Positions 17,309 to 41,411 of a stretch of 64,000 nt of DNA are shown here, in pieces. The translations under genes and the position numbers were made by a program. Below the pieces are notes generated by a model. That model was given only the letters and a program-made list of their open reading frames with translations, did not search any database and was not told the origin of the DNA. Within the stretch, counting starts at the first letter, position 1, and each line of letters begins with the position of its first letter. Source of the DNA: Bacillus niameyensis (GTDB lineage Bacteria > Bacillota > Bacilli > Bacillales > Bacillaceae_C); the NCBI RefSeq assembly GCF_001375535.1, contig NZ_LN831197.1, positions 1,043,752-1,107,751 of the forward strand. Reading direction: 5' to 3'.

Positions 17309-17457
17309 AACAGCATCAAAAGATGTTGTTGCCAACCGCGGAGAAGACTTACATTCCCCTTAAGTTCTTCCTCCGGTTTCTCCTCTCCCTTTTTGCCTTC
17401 TAAACCGTTAGACGGCATAGAAGGACCCTGCATTTTTATAATGCAGGGTATTTTTTT
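17309..17457 (+). ncRNA. csfG: csfG-like forespore small RNA
   Basis: CsfG is a sporulation-specific non-coding RNA known from the ylbH-ylbG interval of endospore formers and transcribed in the forespore. Here the same interval, downstream of rsmD (ylbH), has a sigma-F promoter and an expected start near 17309. A bulged stem-loop follows (CGGAGAAGACTTA against TAAGTTCTTCCTCCG), then a pyrimidine-rich tract (17364-17399, TCTCCTCTCCC within it) and a strong plus-strand terminator. There is no convincing ORF. The neighbouring genes point the other way, so the terminator must serve this RNA. The start position is inferred from promoter spacing. Confidence 0.82.
17425..17457 (+). terminator. Terminator of the csfG-like RNA
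   Basis: Perfect 9-bp arms ACCCTGCAT / ATGCAGGGT are followed by A and seven T on the plus strand only. The minus-strand side lacks a T-run. Confidence 0.9.
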
Positions 17458-17459
17458 AT

Positions 17460-38459: not shown

Positions 38460-39353
38460 TTATCCACGTAACTTTTTAAGCAATTGCGAATTCTGTGTAG
38501 CAGTTCCTCGGTAATTTTTAATTCCGTGTTTTGCTGCTAATTTTTTTCGGTTGGCATAGGATGAAACTACTTTGATCGATTTTAGGTAATCTACAATAGA
38601 ATTAGTCTTCTGATCACCTTTAGGCTTCGGATTGGCTGGCTCCTCAACCTTAGGAGCAGATCCGCCCTTCATCTTATTTAATAGTTCAATGTTTTGAGCT
38701 GCAGTACCCTTATAGTTTTTAACGCCATACTGTGTTGCAAGCTTTTTACGATTAGAAAAAGATGAATCGATTTTCTTACTGTTTAGATAGTCAACAATAG
38801 AATTACCTTTATATTCTGTCGCTGTTTTTGACGGCTTATTTTCCTCTTTAGGTTTGGACACTTCTTTCGCAACTTCTACCGCGCCAATACCTCCGATGAA
38901 ATGCGCCCACCCTGTGAGTAATTTATGCGGACAATTTTTGCCTGACCAGTGTTTATGGGTCAATATGTTACCTTTCGGGATGTTGTGATCTTTTATTAAC
39001 TTTGAAATAAGCCATTGCGCGTTTTTAACAGCTTGCTCGAAATTGCCATCGCTATTTTCGCAGATTTCAATTCCGATAGATTGGCGATTGCCCGCGCCAT
39101 TACCATCGCCTGCGTGCCATCCATTTTCATTTAATGGTAAATGCTGATAGATTTCCTTGTCATCGACTGTAAAGTGCCAGCTTGCTGTACGTCCACCTGC
39201 CCCGTTAAGTAAGTATCTTGCATGCATTTCAGCATTAGCTCCCTTCGAAGCATTTGCCGTGTTGTGTACCGTGATATATTTCGGAGTCATCGCGTATCCT
39301 GGACGTTGTCTCGTTTGTGATTTCGGAATAATTTTCTGTATGATTTTAGGCAT
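38460..39353 (-). CDS. Phage endolysin: N-acetylmuramoyl-L-alanine amidase
   Basis: A 297-residue lysin. The amidase_2 domain (about 1-140) has zinc-ligand histidines in YITVHNTANASKG and LTHKHWSGKNCPHKLL, plus GNGAGNRQSIGIEICENSDG. Two tandem C-terminal wall-binding repeats of about 46 residues follow: SIVDYLNSKKIDSSFSNRKKLA (about 180) and SIVDYLKSIKVVSSYANRKKLA (about 250), as in XlyA/CwlA-type lysins. It cleaves the MurNAc-L-Ala bond at lysis. AAGGAGG precedes ATG 39353. It is downstream of the holin. Confidence 0.94.
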   Translation of the reverse strand: MPKIIQKIIPKSQTRQRPGYAMTPKYITVHNTANASKGANAEMHARYLLNGAGGRTASWHFTVDDKEIYQHLPLNENGWHAGDGNGAGNRQSIGIEICENSDGNFEQAVKNAQWLISKLIKDHNIPKGNILTHKHWSGKNCPHKLLTGWAHFIGGIGAVEVAKEVSKPKEENKPSKTATEYKGNSIVDYLNSKKIDSSFSNRKKLATQYGVKNYKGTAAQNIELLNKMKGGSAPKVEEPANPKPKGDQKTNSIVDYLKSIKVVSSYANRKKLAAKHGIKNYRGTATQNSQLLKKLRG

Positions 39354-39393
39354 GATTATTTTCCTCCTTTTAAATTAGAAAAAGAGCAACGAT

Positions 39394-39789
39394 TTACTCG
39401 TTACTCCCCTTTTTATTAAGTGTTTCTACAGCTTTTTTAAGTACATCAGGAATTGGTAAGTTTGTTTTTCCGACTGTTTCCAAGATACTTAGTAGTTCAT
39501 TGGCTAAATAAAAGAAGATAACCGCATCTCGAATGAAGTGGTTATCTCCCATGATTGTATCAATTGCATGTGCTACAGCGACAAGCAACAAAATAAGTAC
39601 TTTTCTAGCAATACCTTTAAATCCAATTTTGCTACTTAGCTGACCTAGATAAGCTGCTACCGTCACCCCCATAACATAATCAATAACGTTGAATACAACT
39701 AGAATCTGTATCAATGGCGACCACCCTCCAAATAAAAATGAGGCAGCGGCCCCGAAAAATGCAACGATGAATTTCAAAATGTTTTCCAT
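39394..39789 (-). CDS. Phage holin (toxin-secretion/lysis holin family)
   Basis: A 131-residue holin of the Cp-1/TcdE-related class. Hydrophobic helices lie at about 8-38 (FIVAFFGAAASFLFGGWSPLIQILVVFNVIDYVMG), 60-78 and 88-103; a charged tail ends KKAVETLNKKGSNE. It makes the membrane lesion that releases the amidase. A terminator separates it from sinI upstream, so it needs read-through or its own promoter. Confidence 0.9.
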   Translation of the reverse strand: MENILKFIVAFFGAAASFLFGGWSPLIQILVVFNVIDYVMGVTVAAYLGQLSSKIGFKGIARKVLILLLVAVAHAIDTIMGDNHFIRDAVIFFYLANELLSILETVGKTNLPIPDVLKKAVETLNKKGSNE

Positions 39790-39810
39790 GATATCCTCCT
39801 TTTTAAAAAC

Positions 39811-39838
39811 TAAAAGAGCACCTCATAGTGAGATGCTC
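39811..39838 (-). terminator. Terminator after sinI
   Basis: The arms GAGCATCTCA / TGAGGTGCTC (minus strand, one G-U pair) with a 3-nt loop are followed by TTTTAGTTTTT. It lies 3 nt after the sinI stop and ahead of the holin, which makes riboswitch-sinI a self-contained unit. Confidence 0.82.
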
Positions 39839-39840
39839 CG

Positions 39841-39966
39841 TTAAAACATTATTTTTTTGTCACTTCTTAAAAATTCTCTAATCATTTCGGTGGGTATCCC
39901 CATGGCTAACGCTTCTTTTATTAGCTCAACCCATTCTTTATCCAATTCCTTTTTACTATTAATCAC
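39841..39966 (-). CDS. sinI: SinI-type anti-repressor carried by the prophage
   Basis: A 41-residue protein, translated by hand: VINSKKELDKEWVELIKEAL then AMGIPTEMIREFLRSDKKIMF. The first helix ELDKEWVEL(I)KEA and IP.E.IR.FL match the SinI dimerisation domain, which in B. subtilis binds SinR through the same helices and lifts repression of biofilm genes. GTG start, with AGGAGG 6 nt upstream. The leader is a c-di-GMP riboswitch and a terminator follows. The target may be host SinR or a phage repressor. It is not near sinR here, and no SinR-like C-terminal domain is seen on the prophage's XRE proteins. Confidence 0.88.
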   Translation of the reverse strand: MINSKKELDKEWVELIKEALAMGIPTEMIREFLRSDKKIMF

Positions 39967-39975
39967 CGCAAACCT

Positions 39976-39998
39976 CCTAAAATAGCATGTATTTTAGG
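39976..39998 (-). promoter_or_regulatory. SD-sequestering hairpin (expression platform)
   Basis: CCTAAAATA / TATTTTAGG, a perfect 9-bp stem with a 5-nt loop. The 3' arm contains the first AGG of the sinI Shine-Dalgarno site AGGAGG. The 5' CCT (39998-39996) also belongs to the last strand of the upstream aptamer, so aptamer and hairpin should be mutually exclusive. Confidence 0.7.
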
Positions 39999-40072
39999 TA
40001 GCTCAGCCATCATAGTTTTATAACCTTAGACCTGTAGCTTTGCGTCTCAACCTTTCGATTGATTTGCCTTTT
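39991..40072 (-). ncRNA. Cyclic di-GMP-I (GEMM) riboswitch upstream of sinI
   Basis: On the minus strand the leader contains, in order and spacing, the GEMM-I invariants: AGGCAAATC, a CAATC-GAAA-GGTTG tetraloop hairpin, GAGACGCAAAGC, then GGTCTAAGG ... CTATGATGGC (the 11-nt GAAA-receptor halves) and GAGCTACCT closing the structure. This matches the Vc2-type c-di-GMP aptamer nearly base for base in the core. Bound ligand should hold the closing strand and free the sinI ribosome site, predicting an ON switch; that polarity is inference. P1 looks weak (AGG/CCT plus mismatches). Confidence 0.9.
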
Positions 40073-40132
40073 TCTAGGTTATATTAATGATTCGACACAA
40101 AAGGAGGGAACCCTTCTTCTTACCTATAAAAT

Positions 40133-40155
40133 AAGCACCTCCAAATGAGATGCTT
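40133..40155 (-). terminator. Weak terminator after the 60-residue phage gene
   Basis: AAGCATCT / AGGTGCTT (one G-U pair) with a 7-nt loop on the minus strand, followed by ATTTTAT. It nearly copies the hairpin behind sinI (GAGCATCT.../...AGGTGCTC). Confidence 0.55.
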
Positions 40156-40337
40156 CAATTATTTTCATAGATGTTAATAATGTCGATTTGGTCAGCATTT
40201 AAAACTATCTGATCTTCGGTAATTAAAAATTTCCCACCGTTGATCTCTACAGGCATGACCATTTTAAGATTAGTATCTGTCTCAATCTCCACAGGTCGCC
40301 CGTTTTTAAACAAGACGAATACTGAGTATTTTTTCAC
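40155..40337 (-). CDS. Small phage protein of unknown function
   Basis: A 60-residue protein (VKKYSVFVLFKNGRPVEIETDT ... ITEDQIVLNADQIDIINIYENN) that looks like a small beta-barrel or beta-sheet protein. GTG start with a strong GGAGGGGGAGGG site. No family recognised. It lies between the tyrosine recombinase and the riboswitch-sinI unit and ends in its own weak terminator. Confidence 0.65.
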   Translation of the reverse strand: MKKYSVFVLFKNGRPVEIETDTNLKMVMPVEINGGKFLITEDQIVLNADQIDIINIYENN

Positions 40338-40406
40338 AGATCCCTCCCCCTCCTTAATACCTATATACGATATTGAGAAGGGAATTCCTTCTAAAATAAG
40401 AATTCT

Positions 40407-41411
40407 TTACTGGGCATGATACCTTTTATGAGCTTGTCTTTTTCTTTCCTCTGATACGTGAGCATAAATTAAAGTAGTGCTAGGATTTTTGTGTCCTAAA
40501 ATGTGTTGCACGTCGGCTAATTCTGCTCCATTCTCCATCATTAGTGATGCTTTTGTATGCCTAAATGTATGAGGAGTTAGCTTTTTAGACAGTTTCGCTC
40601 TGTTTTCAATTTTATCAATAGCTCTCTGAATACTCCTGCCTGTTAATTGATTGAACGGCCTTCTTTCCCTGATAAATACATAATCGCTATCACCTTCAAG
40701 TGGTTCTTTTCGAGTGTTTAGATAATTGTTTAGATGGTGGAGAGCCTTGAAAGTTAAGTAAACCCTTCGTTCCTCATCTCCTTTCCCAATTATGGTTGCA
40801 CTTTTATCTTGGTAATTAATGTCGCTAATCTTCATATTAGCGATTTCAGATAACCTACAACCCGTTGAATATAAAACTTCAACTAAAGCCCGTTCCCTAT
40901 ATGTTTCACACGATTCTCTAACCATTTCCAACTCATCTACAGTTAAAGCCTTCAAAAGACGTTTTGGCTTTTTAGGTGATTTTATTTTAGAAGATGGGTT
41001 TCTTAGTAATAACTCTTCTTCAACTAGCCATCCGAAAAAACTTTTTATAACCGACAGTTTCCTATCAACTGTACCAGGTTGCCATTTTTTATTTGATGCA
41101 AGGTAAGCTCGGATATCGGAAGTGGTTATCTGGACTACTCCTTTTTTAACAAACTTACAGAACAGCCTTAGCTCAAGCATATACCCTTCCAAAGTTAATC
41201 CACTTAATCCTTCTATTTGTTTAGCTGACAAAAACATATCGACTTTTTCTGATGTGTCATCTTCGATGTCTAATTCTGTTTTTCTTTTAATTTCATAATT
41301 GCTAAGGACTTCTTCAAGTCTATGCATCAATTTAACTTCGTCTATGTCAGGGGCAACAATGCTGGTTACAACATTCAAGTCCATCATGAGTCTTGCTACA
41401 TCATTGATCAT
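40407..41411 (-). CDS. Tyrosine recombinase/integrase (XerC/D-like)
   Basis: A 334-residue recombinase with an extra ~55-residue N terminus. A core-binding domain follows at about 55-145 (GLTLEGYMLELRLFCKFVKK), then the catalytic domain from about 150. All active-site residues are visible: Arg in YSTGCRLSEIANMK, Lys in IGKGDEERRVYL, His-x-x-Arg in TPHTFRHTKAS, His in LGHKNPSTT and the nucleophile Tyr in LIYAHV. ATG 41411 follows GAGGAGG. It is divergent from an XRE gene. It is the best candidate for the prophage integrase, although it sits about 5 kb inside the left edge. Confidence 0.92.
   Translation of the reverse strand: MINDVARLMMDLNVVTSIVAPDIDEVKLMHRLEEVLSNYEIKRKTELDIEDDTSEKVDMFLSAKQIEGLSGLTLEGYMLELRLFCKFVKKGVVQITTSDIRAYLASNKKWQPGTVDRKLSVIKSFFGWLVEEELLLRNPSSKIKSPKKPKRLLKALTVDELEMVRESCETYRERALVEVLYSTGCRLSEIANMKISDINYQDKSATIIGKGDEERRVYLTFKALHHLNNYLNTRKEPLEGDSDYVFIRERRPFNQLTGRSIQRAIDKIENRAKLSKKLTPHTFRHTKASLMMENGAELADVQHILGHKNPSTTLIYAHVSEERKRQAHKRYHAQ

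Follow-up and report, generated by a model that had tools for sequence, protein, structure and literature searches.

Outside B. subtilis, to our knowledge, it is poorly explained how cyclic di-GMP (c-di-GMP) feeds into the SinI-SinR biofilm switch. In B. subtilis, the role of c-di-GMP in biofilm formation is slight.

The aptamer class and the SinI family are already known, and their pairing on a chromosome is in print as a table line: in the part of PMC4342826 available to us, Table 4 lists a (c-di-GMP)-sinI leader for Bacillus methanolicus MGA3, as an entry without a mechanism. The locus described here resembles that entry in having a c-di-GMP riboswitch 5′ of a sinI-type gene but differs, as far as a table line permits comparison, in being phage-borne, unlinked to sinR and predicted to act on translation. 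A second precedent comes from the prophages of C. difficile 630, in which, according to the accessible portion of PMC3649979, the c-di-GMP-I riboswitches Cdi1_4 and Cdi1_5 occupy equivalents of the PhiCD119 lysis module, with CD2889 and CD0977.1 as possible targets. Our locus likewise has a prophage c-di-GMP-I riboswitch near lysis genes, whereas its first gene is of the SinI type and a terminator-like hairpin precedes the lysis genes. Within the B. cereus group, Bc2/cbpA (PMC7423583, seen in excerpt) is another Bacillus c-di-GMP-I switch that is ON with ligand; there, however, an adhesin gene is controlled at transcription, whereas here a regulator would be controlled by a predicted translational switch. 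Finally, the sections of PMC7793685 at hand report that in B. thuringiensis high c-di-GMP accompanies raised sinI expression and more biofilm, ascribe no riboswitch to sinI, and describe the c-di-GMP riboswitch preceding mcpA in the B. cereus group as “off”. The portions of PMC2614493 and PMC8876208 covered make no mention of a sinI riboswitch, and the literature searched (titles and beginnings of abstracts, leaving aside subscription papers and preprints) held no further description of a riboswitch-sinI unit. Within the same literature, we did not find the phage-borne pairing, its likely translational mechanism or the sibling phage units with a CheY-like gene that are described below.

In our opinion, the locus is fairly likely to be a prophage moron in which a c-di-GMP-I riboswitch controls translation of a 41-aa SinI-type anti-repressor of SinR, being ON with ligand and favouring biofilm; we infer ligand binding, the ON direction, SinR as the target and the biofilm outcome. 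The features below lie in the window, that is, the whole 64,000-nucleotide stretch of Bacillus niameyensis DNA that was analysed, and are given in the direction of reading.

40407..41411, minus: tyrosine recombinase inside the prophage (Phage_integrase, 134.7 bits; PHROG 1, integrase)
40155..40337, minus: 60-codon ORF 5′ of the unit (without a match to PHROGs at E 0.001 or to Pfam above cut-off)
40133..40155, minus: terminator-like hairpin 5′ of the riboswitch, after the 60-codon ORF (terminator scan)
39994..40078, minus: c-di-GMP-I riboswitch aptamer (RF01051; cmscan, 86.6 bits, E 9.8e-16)
39976..39998, minus: predicted expression-platform hairpin, CCUAAAAUA-caugc-UAUUUUAGG (9 uninterrupted pairs)
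39841..39966, minus: SinI-type anti-repressor ORF, GTG start, 41 codons (Pfam SinI PF08671, 42.4 bits)
39815..39839, minus: terminator-like hairpin separating the SinI-type gene from the holin (11-pair stem, then a T run)
39394..39789, minus: holin (Phage_holin_4_1, 138.7 bits; PHROG 199, holin)
38460..39353, minus: endolysin, N-acetylmuramoyl-L-alanine amidase (Amidase_2; PHROG 5182, endolysin)

The riboswitch and the gene behind it

An earlier note, made from the letters alone, had placed a c-di-GMP (GEMM-I) riboswitch at 39991-40072 and proposed an Infernal search with RF01051 as the check. This search, run with cmscan over the whole window, bears out the class: the minus-strand match scores 86.6 bits (E 9.8e-16) against a gathering cut-off of 35 bits, covers model positions 1-87 of 87 and contains no pair flagged as non-standard. 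The place was likewise right, while the ends, at 39994-40078, lie a few bases off on each side. The core motifs follow one another on the minus strand in the order that had been described (GGCAAA, the GAAA loop, GACGCAAAGC, GTCTAAGG and TATGATGG). Judged by eye on the RF01051 alignment, the ligand-contact letters are of the c-di-GMP type: what we take to be G20, A47 and C92 of the published aptamer are present as the G that precedes CAAA, the A in the centre of GCAAAGC and the first letter of the CC within GCUACC. The likeness to the RF01051 class thus consists of a full-length covariance match and of contact positions of the c-di-GMP type; what sets this member apart is its place in a prophage, in front of a SinI-type anti-repressor, and its binding of c-di-GMP is a prediction. 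A search of the whole genome (4.68 Mb, 6 contigs) gave two RF01051 matches, the window aptamer and one on the chromosome.

The first ORF 3′ of the aptamer, which the earlier note missed, is the 41-codon SinI-type gene running from 39966 to 39841. Its Pfam match exceeds the cut-off for PF08671 (31.4 bits), phmmer aligns the protein with the solved SinI chain 1b0n_B at E 3.7e-4, and a Shine-Dalgarno sequence, AGGAGG at 39978-39973, lies six bases 5′ of the GTG start. The protein shares with B. subtilis SinI (PDB 1b0n, 5tmx) the core ELDxEWVELxxEA, aligned over residues 6-38, but it has 41 residues, is phage-borne, lacks an adjoining sinR and has a riboswitch in front. It consists of the SinI domain alone, with no HTH family among its Pfam matches, and it has no PHROG match at E 0.001.

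For comparison we used 51 riboswitch-SinI units, the set that a single regular expression retrieves; the tree and the fold, helix and pN/pS counts rest on this set and leave out ten or more units that were verified (L043, L044, L049, L052, L053, L055, L061, L084, L086 and L087). With the window as reference, pN is lower than pS over a 24-codon core in 50 of the 50 relatives in frame, as against 33/50 in frame +1 and 0/50 in frame +2; the count is somewhat flattered because 4 of the 24 codons are fixed in type by the search pattern, and synonymous change in these core comparisons is near saturation (median pS 0.84). The comparisons point clearly to selection on the coding frame of the SinI-type gene across relatives.

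The host circuit and the proposed target of the SinI-type protein

The host carries sinI (48 aa) and sinR (109 aa, with an HTH and a SinI domain) on contig C6 at about 572 kb, together with 9 GGDEF domains and 2 proteins of the M73/TasA type. Since SinR, GGDEF and TasA-family genes are all there, the parts needed for the model are present. The whole-genome search found no RF01051 match at the host's own sinI, so that the SinI-type gene of the prophage is, within detection, the only one in this host to be gated by a riboswitch. A third SinI frame, without a usual start, lies convergent to sinR, at the place that is occupied by a riboswitch-sinI site in the relatives G006, G010 and G014. Altogether, six host SinI-domain matches exceed the cut-off, the 41-aa prophage protein and SinR included; in view of the other SinI-domain proteins, the prophage protein could be redundant.

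According to the model that we favour, at low c-di-GMP the CC near the 3′ end of the aptamer would be paired in a hairpin with the Shine-Dalgarno sequence, and the gene would be off. When c-di-GMP is bound, the ligand and helix P1 would engage the CC, and the hairpin would lose its base; the Shine-Dalgarno sequence would open and the SinI-type protein would be made. The protein would then bind host SinR, as SinI of B. subtilis does, SinR-repressed matrix genes would be released, and the lysogen would respond to rising c-di-GMP by committing itself more strongly to biofilm life.

Neither the window nor the prophage stretch beyond it yielded a SinR-type partner, the sole SinI-domain match there at E up to 1 being the 41-aa gene itself; for this reason, SinR is a target that we infer. 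The protein may instead act on another phage or host repressor with a SinR-type dimerisation domain and, for example, tune lysogeny or polysaccharide genes. Two viral contigs are consistent with such a role, since in each of them what by eye is a tyrosine recombinase is immediately followed by a SinI-type gene that has no riboswitch (L147:929-1051 and L148:987-1112). So is a second SinR-like ORF of the host (L081), whose neighbours on both sides resemble, by eye, surface-polysaccharide genes and whose SinI-domain score, 23.6 bits, is below the cut-off. The solitary SinI-domain match in the prophage speaks against a partner there, and we hold a target other than SinR to be unlikely, if the best of the alternatives.

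The prophage and its lysis genes

PHROG matches to a holin, an endolysin and an integrase confirm that the unit lies inside a prophage, as had been proposed, and further matches in its surroundings are to replication-initiation-like, FtsK-like, tail, Dit and tape-measure proteins. The prophage is of the siphovirus type, and IMG/VR contains the same element as a viral contig of 40,006 bases (L032/L146). Its borders were sought in two ways that failed: as direct-repeat att sites, the only candidate was a 14-base A/T match, taken as chance, and a tyrosine integrase was expected at a prophage end. The right end instead has an ORF that by eye resembles a serine recombinase (L195:10872-12413), beside a phoH-like gene. 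Like L147 and L148, the window has a tyrosine recombinase upstream of its SinI-type gene.

A terminator scan of 39700-40400 reported three sites, one of them inside the holin ORF, whereas shuffled sequence gives 0.4; the other two flank the unit. No convincing promoter emerged from the same interval (two promoter-like sites against 2.1 in shuffles), and the sole minus-strand site is upstream of the first terminator. Having its own leader, a single gene and its own terminator, the unit is organised like a moron. The flanking hairpins at 40133-40155 and 39815-39839 have similar stems, which could have aided entry of the unit by recombination.

The riboswitch-SinI unit was found in three more prophages or remnants: L126 (G163:C5), L140 (G400:C62) and L082 (G009:C29). 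In L126 and L140, xtrA is about 1.6-2.2 kb away, a PHROG 190 resolvase-type gene adjoins the unit, and no lysis gene was recognised beside it. In L082, the unit lies 5′ of a lysis gene of the XhlA family (35.8 bits, cut-off 34.7) that carries a stop, and the SinI frame has no ATG, GTG or TTG. Because of the XhlA match L082 is likely a prophage remnant; the other genes read on its contig do not look phage-like.

These places bear on the proposal that the riboswitch times lysis, so that c-di-GMP would control the holin and the endolysin, besides or instead of the SinI-type gene, by read-through. The earlier note had rightly put the riboswitch next to the lysis genes: the holin and the endolysin adjoin the unit. 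Both are read in the same direction as the SinI-type gene, and the holin begins less than 60 bases from that gene's end; the C. difficile prophages have c-di-GMP-I riboswitches in the lysis module (PMC3649979, in the portion accessible), and in L082, too, the unit precedes a lysis gene. Lysis-gene control is nevertheless set back by what lies between. In an arrangement of the C. difficile type the first gene would be a lysis gene, whereas here the SinI-type gene and the 11-pair terminator-like hairpin at 39839-39815 intervene; this hairpin makes the lysis genes neighbours rather than a likely target. Moreover, the predicted switch acts on the Shine-Dalgarno sequence of the SinI-type gene, and the units of L126 and L140 recur at their distance from xtrA with no lysis gene recognised alongside. 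We therefore regard control of lysis as improbable.

The suggestion that the prophage reads the second messenger of its host stands as regards the aptamer class and the place by the lysis genes; any switching of those genes, from which the riboswitch is separated by the SinI-type gene and the hairpin, is not supported. Since the SinI-type gene comes first behind the aptamer and is followed by a hairpin, the prophage probably does more than read c-di-GMP: judging from the order of these elements, it would probably turn the signal into an antagonist of the host biofilm repressor.

The predicted expression platform

The first two letters of the 5′ arm of the platform hairpin are C residues (39998-39997) close to the end of the aptamer on its 3′ side, and the last three letters of the 3′ arm are the first AGG in the AGGAGG at 39978-39973. 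In the free fold of the leader, CCUAAAAUA is paired with UAUUUUAGG and the Shine-Dalgarno sequence is sequestered. We take the two C to be C92, the pairing partner of the ligand, and C93, part of P1. As the ligand and P1 would use this CC, binding should break the base of the hairpin, and because the hairpin formed with the aptamer's CC is what hides the Shine-Dalgarno sequence, the fold predicts translation ON with c-di-GMP. The raised sinI expression of B. thuringiensis at high c-di-GMP (PMC7793685, as far as its accessible sections go) is in the direction expected for this model.

None of 100 linker shuffles gave a helix as good as that of the window. An anti-Shine-Dalgarno helix of at least 6 uninterrupted pairs is present in 32 of the 51 units, against 12.2 expected from linker shuffles, and missing in the other 19. 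The helices of the other prophages compare with their shuffles less favourably than that of the window (L082, 9 pairs, 6/100 as good; L126, 9 pairs, 8/100; L140, 6 pairs, 52/100).

In the model with 6 nt of 5′ flank, imposing the aptamer on the fold increased the fraction of the Shine-Dalgarno sequence that is unpaired from 0.18 to 0.81 in the window and, on average, from 0.37 to 0.60 in the 51 units, of which 26 gained more than 0.2 in accessibility and 2 lost more than 0.2. With a longer 5′ flank (50 units, one of the 51 being skipped), accessibility went up in 38, by more than 0.2 in 29, and fell by more than 0.2 in 3. It should be noted that shuffled linkers gain as well (mean 0.15 against 0.23 for the real ones; in the window, 0.42 against 0.63), so that much of the effect comes from the aptamer CC and the Shine-Dalgarno sequence alone. 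A real unit gains more than its own shuffles in 31 of the 51 cases (Wilcoxon p 0.010). The shuffle controls thus back the modelled switch only in part, and the models lend moderate support to an ON switch at translation. Formation of the aptamer in the window has a modelled cost of 13.8 kcal/mol with the 6-nt 5′ flank and 17.0 with 15 nt; in view of this large cost, co-transcriptional folding may be needed.

The opposite polarity, an OFF switch in which the ligand reduces the amount of SinI-type protein and promotes motility or departure from the biofilm, has a parallel in the mcpA riboswitch of the B. cereus group, described as “off” in the accessible part of PMC7793685, and in the few units that lose more than 0.2 accessibility (3/50 with the longer flank, 2/51 with the shorter). 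Yet modelled accessibility increases in the window and in most units, and the arm opposing the Shine-Dalgarno sequence shares its CC with the aptamer; we consider an OFF switch doubtful, to about the same degree as control of lysis. That the unit is a decaying passenger without function is the least probable reading, for although the L082 copy has no start codon of the usual kind and the lysis gene behind it is interrupted by a stop, the window copy is intact in aptamer, Shine-Dalgarno sequence, start, 41-codon frame and terminator-like hairpin, the signature of coding-frame selection across relatives is clear, and the unit recurs in other prophages.

Further phage-borne loci

Two exact-pattern scans of viral contigs yielded 9 distinct stretches with the aptamer core, all 9 over the RF01051 cut-off; one of them is partial (36.8 bits) and one is the window's own prophage. 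At L031:10702-10784 and L037:5848-5929, a c-di-GMP-I riboswitch is followed by a CheY-like receiver that stands alone, beside xtrA; the receivers score 82.4 and 89.5 bits, respectively, with Response_reg. L039 also has a receiver behind the aptamer; the neighbours read do not mark its contig as phage. A scan of viral contigs with the SinI profile gave five loci, one of which is the window's own, and the riboswitch is absent from the other four (L147-L150). Searches of an annotated phage collection returned one weak record with the 41-aa protein (tblastn, E 5) and four records with 39390-40110 (blastn), the latter as weak partial matches over 5 to 24% of the query.

The SinI frames of L082 (about 1500), L150 (about 1400) and L078 (about 2300) each have a good Shine-Dalgarno sequence and no ATG, GTG or TTG. 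An ATT or ATC lies at fitting spacing in these frames, and either decay or an unusual start may account for them.

Chromosomal units

A riboswitch-sinI unit is found 5′ of chromosomal sinI, often with sinR, in many Bacillales. RF01051 matches occur in all 16 of the same-genus genomes searched, and 11 of these have an intact aptamer before chromosomal sinI (G001, G002, G003, G006, G007, G010, G011, G012, G013, G014 and G015). In G004 and G008 (2/16) the match has only 63 bases and is interrupted before sinI; G000, the host, and G009 have the riboswitch-SinI unit solely in a prophage or remnant; and G005 has three RF01051 matches, with no SinI at the two that were read. Two observations concern individual chromosomes. 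In L016 and L017, the aptamer of chromosomal sinI is broken after CTAAGG by extra, palindromic-looking sequence (GCGCAAGCGCC). In G013 (L014/L054), the riboswitch-sinI frame reads on to 167 codons with partial SinR-like sequence, and the start region of sinR looks rearranged.

Wider searches with the joint pattern gave matches in 23 of the 34 genomes covered at the level of the family and in 149 of the 397 covered at that of the order, many of these being chance matches. Twenty order-level places picked by eye all had an RF01051 or RF03167 match and, again by eye, a SinI-like ORF. A stricter pattern picked out, by sequence pattern alone, 42 named places in the genome collection; sinR, recognised by a simple motif, lies within 2.5 kb downstream in 13 of the 42, and for several others the sequence ends before 2.5 kb. 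The riboswitch-SinI unit thus occurs both linked to sinR and on its own.

Derivation of the prophage unit from a chromosomal sinI leader of the same genus was considered, and the tree of the 51 units does not support it. All four prophage units are placed, together with 13 others, in a group of 17 rows (support 93/89, below the star level) that is separate from L014 and L057-L060, which are linked to sinR. On the tree, the prophage label requires 4 changes, shuffled labels a mean of 3.9, with 500 of 500 shuffles as low; the tree therefore shows no single prophage lineage. A rule by which a prophage carries the unit only where a chromosomal unit is missing was likewise dropped as a general one. 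It fits G000, with two RF01051 matches (in the prophage and at a Spo0E-like gene), and G009, with one (in the remnant), but in G400 a further match, on a different contig, agrees with the joint pattern as well, and G163 has five.

Implications

We give even weight, for and against, to a broader proposition: that temperate phages of Bacillales carry a class of c-di-GMP-gated morons at recurring places, and that, where, as in the present host, the sinI leader has no detectable riboswitch, the prophage supplies the c-di-GMP input of the SinR circuit. If this is true, the exchangeable moron would be a c-di-GMP-I riboswitch with a small regulator of host lifestyle, either a SinI-type anti-repressor or a CheY-like receiver, inserted near lysis genes or near xtrA. 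The motile/biofilm decision of a lysogen would then become a phage trait, and temperate phages could deliver second-messenger input to a developmental switch of the host. The module is small, an aptamer and about 40 codons, and offers a direct, testable wire, since one RNA would place SinI synthesis under c-di-GMP.

Other structured leaders of the host

The window also contains a ylbH leader RNA (RF00516, 91.9 bits) at 17336-17458, minus strand, an ordinary Bacillus element. The second c-di-GMP-I riboswitch of the host (G000:C6:1867333-1867417, minus strand; L002/L083; 84.4 bits) lies directly 5′ of a 59-aa Spo0E-like gene (PF09388, 44.7 bits); it would couple c-di-GMP to Spo0A phosphate. The leader of this gene is of the same AAAATA...TATTTTAGGAGG type as that of the window unit.
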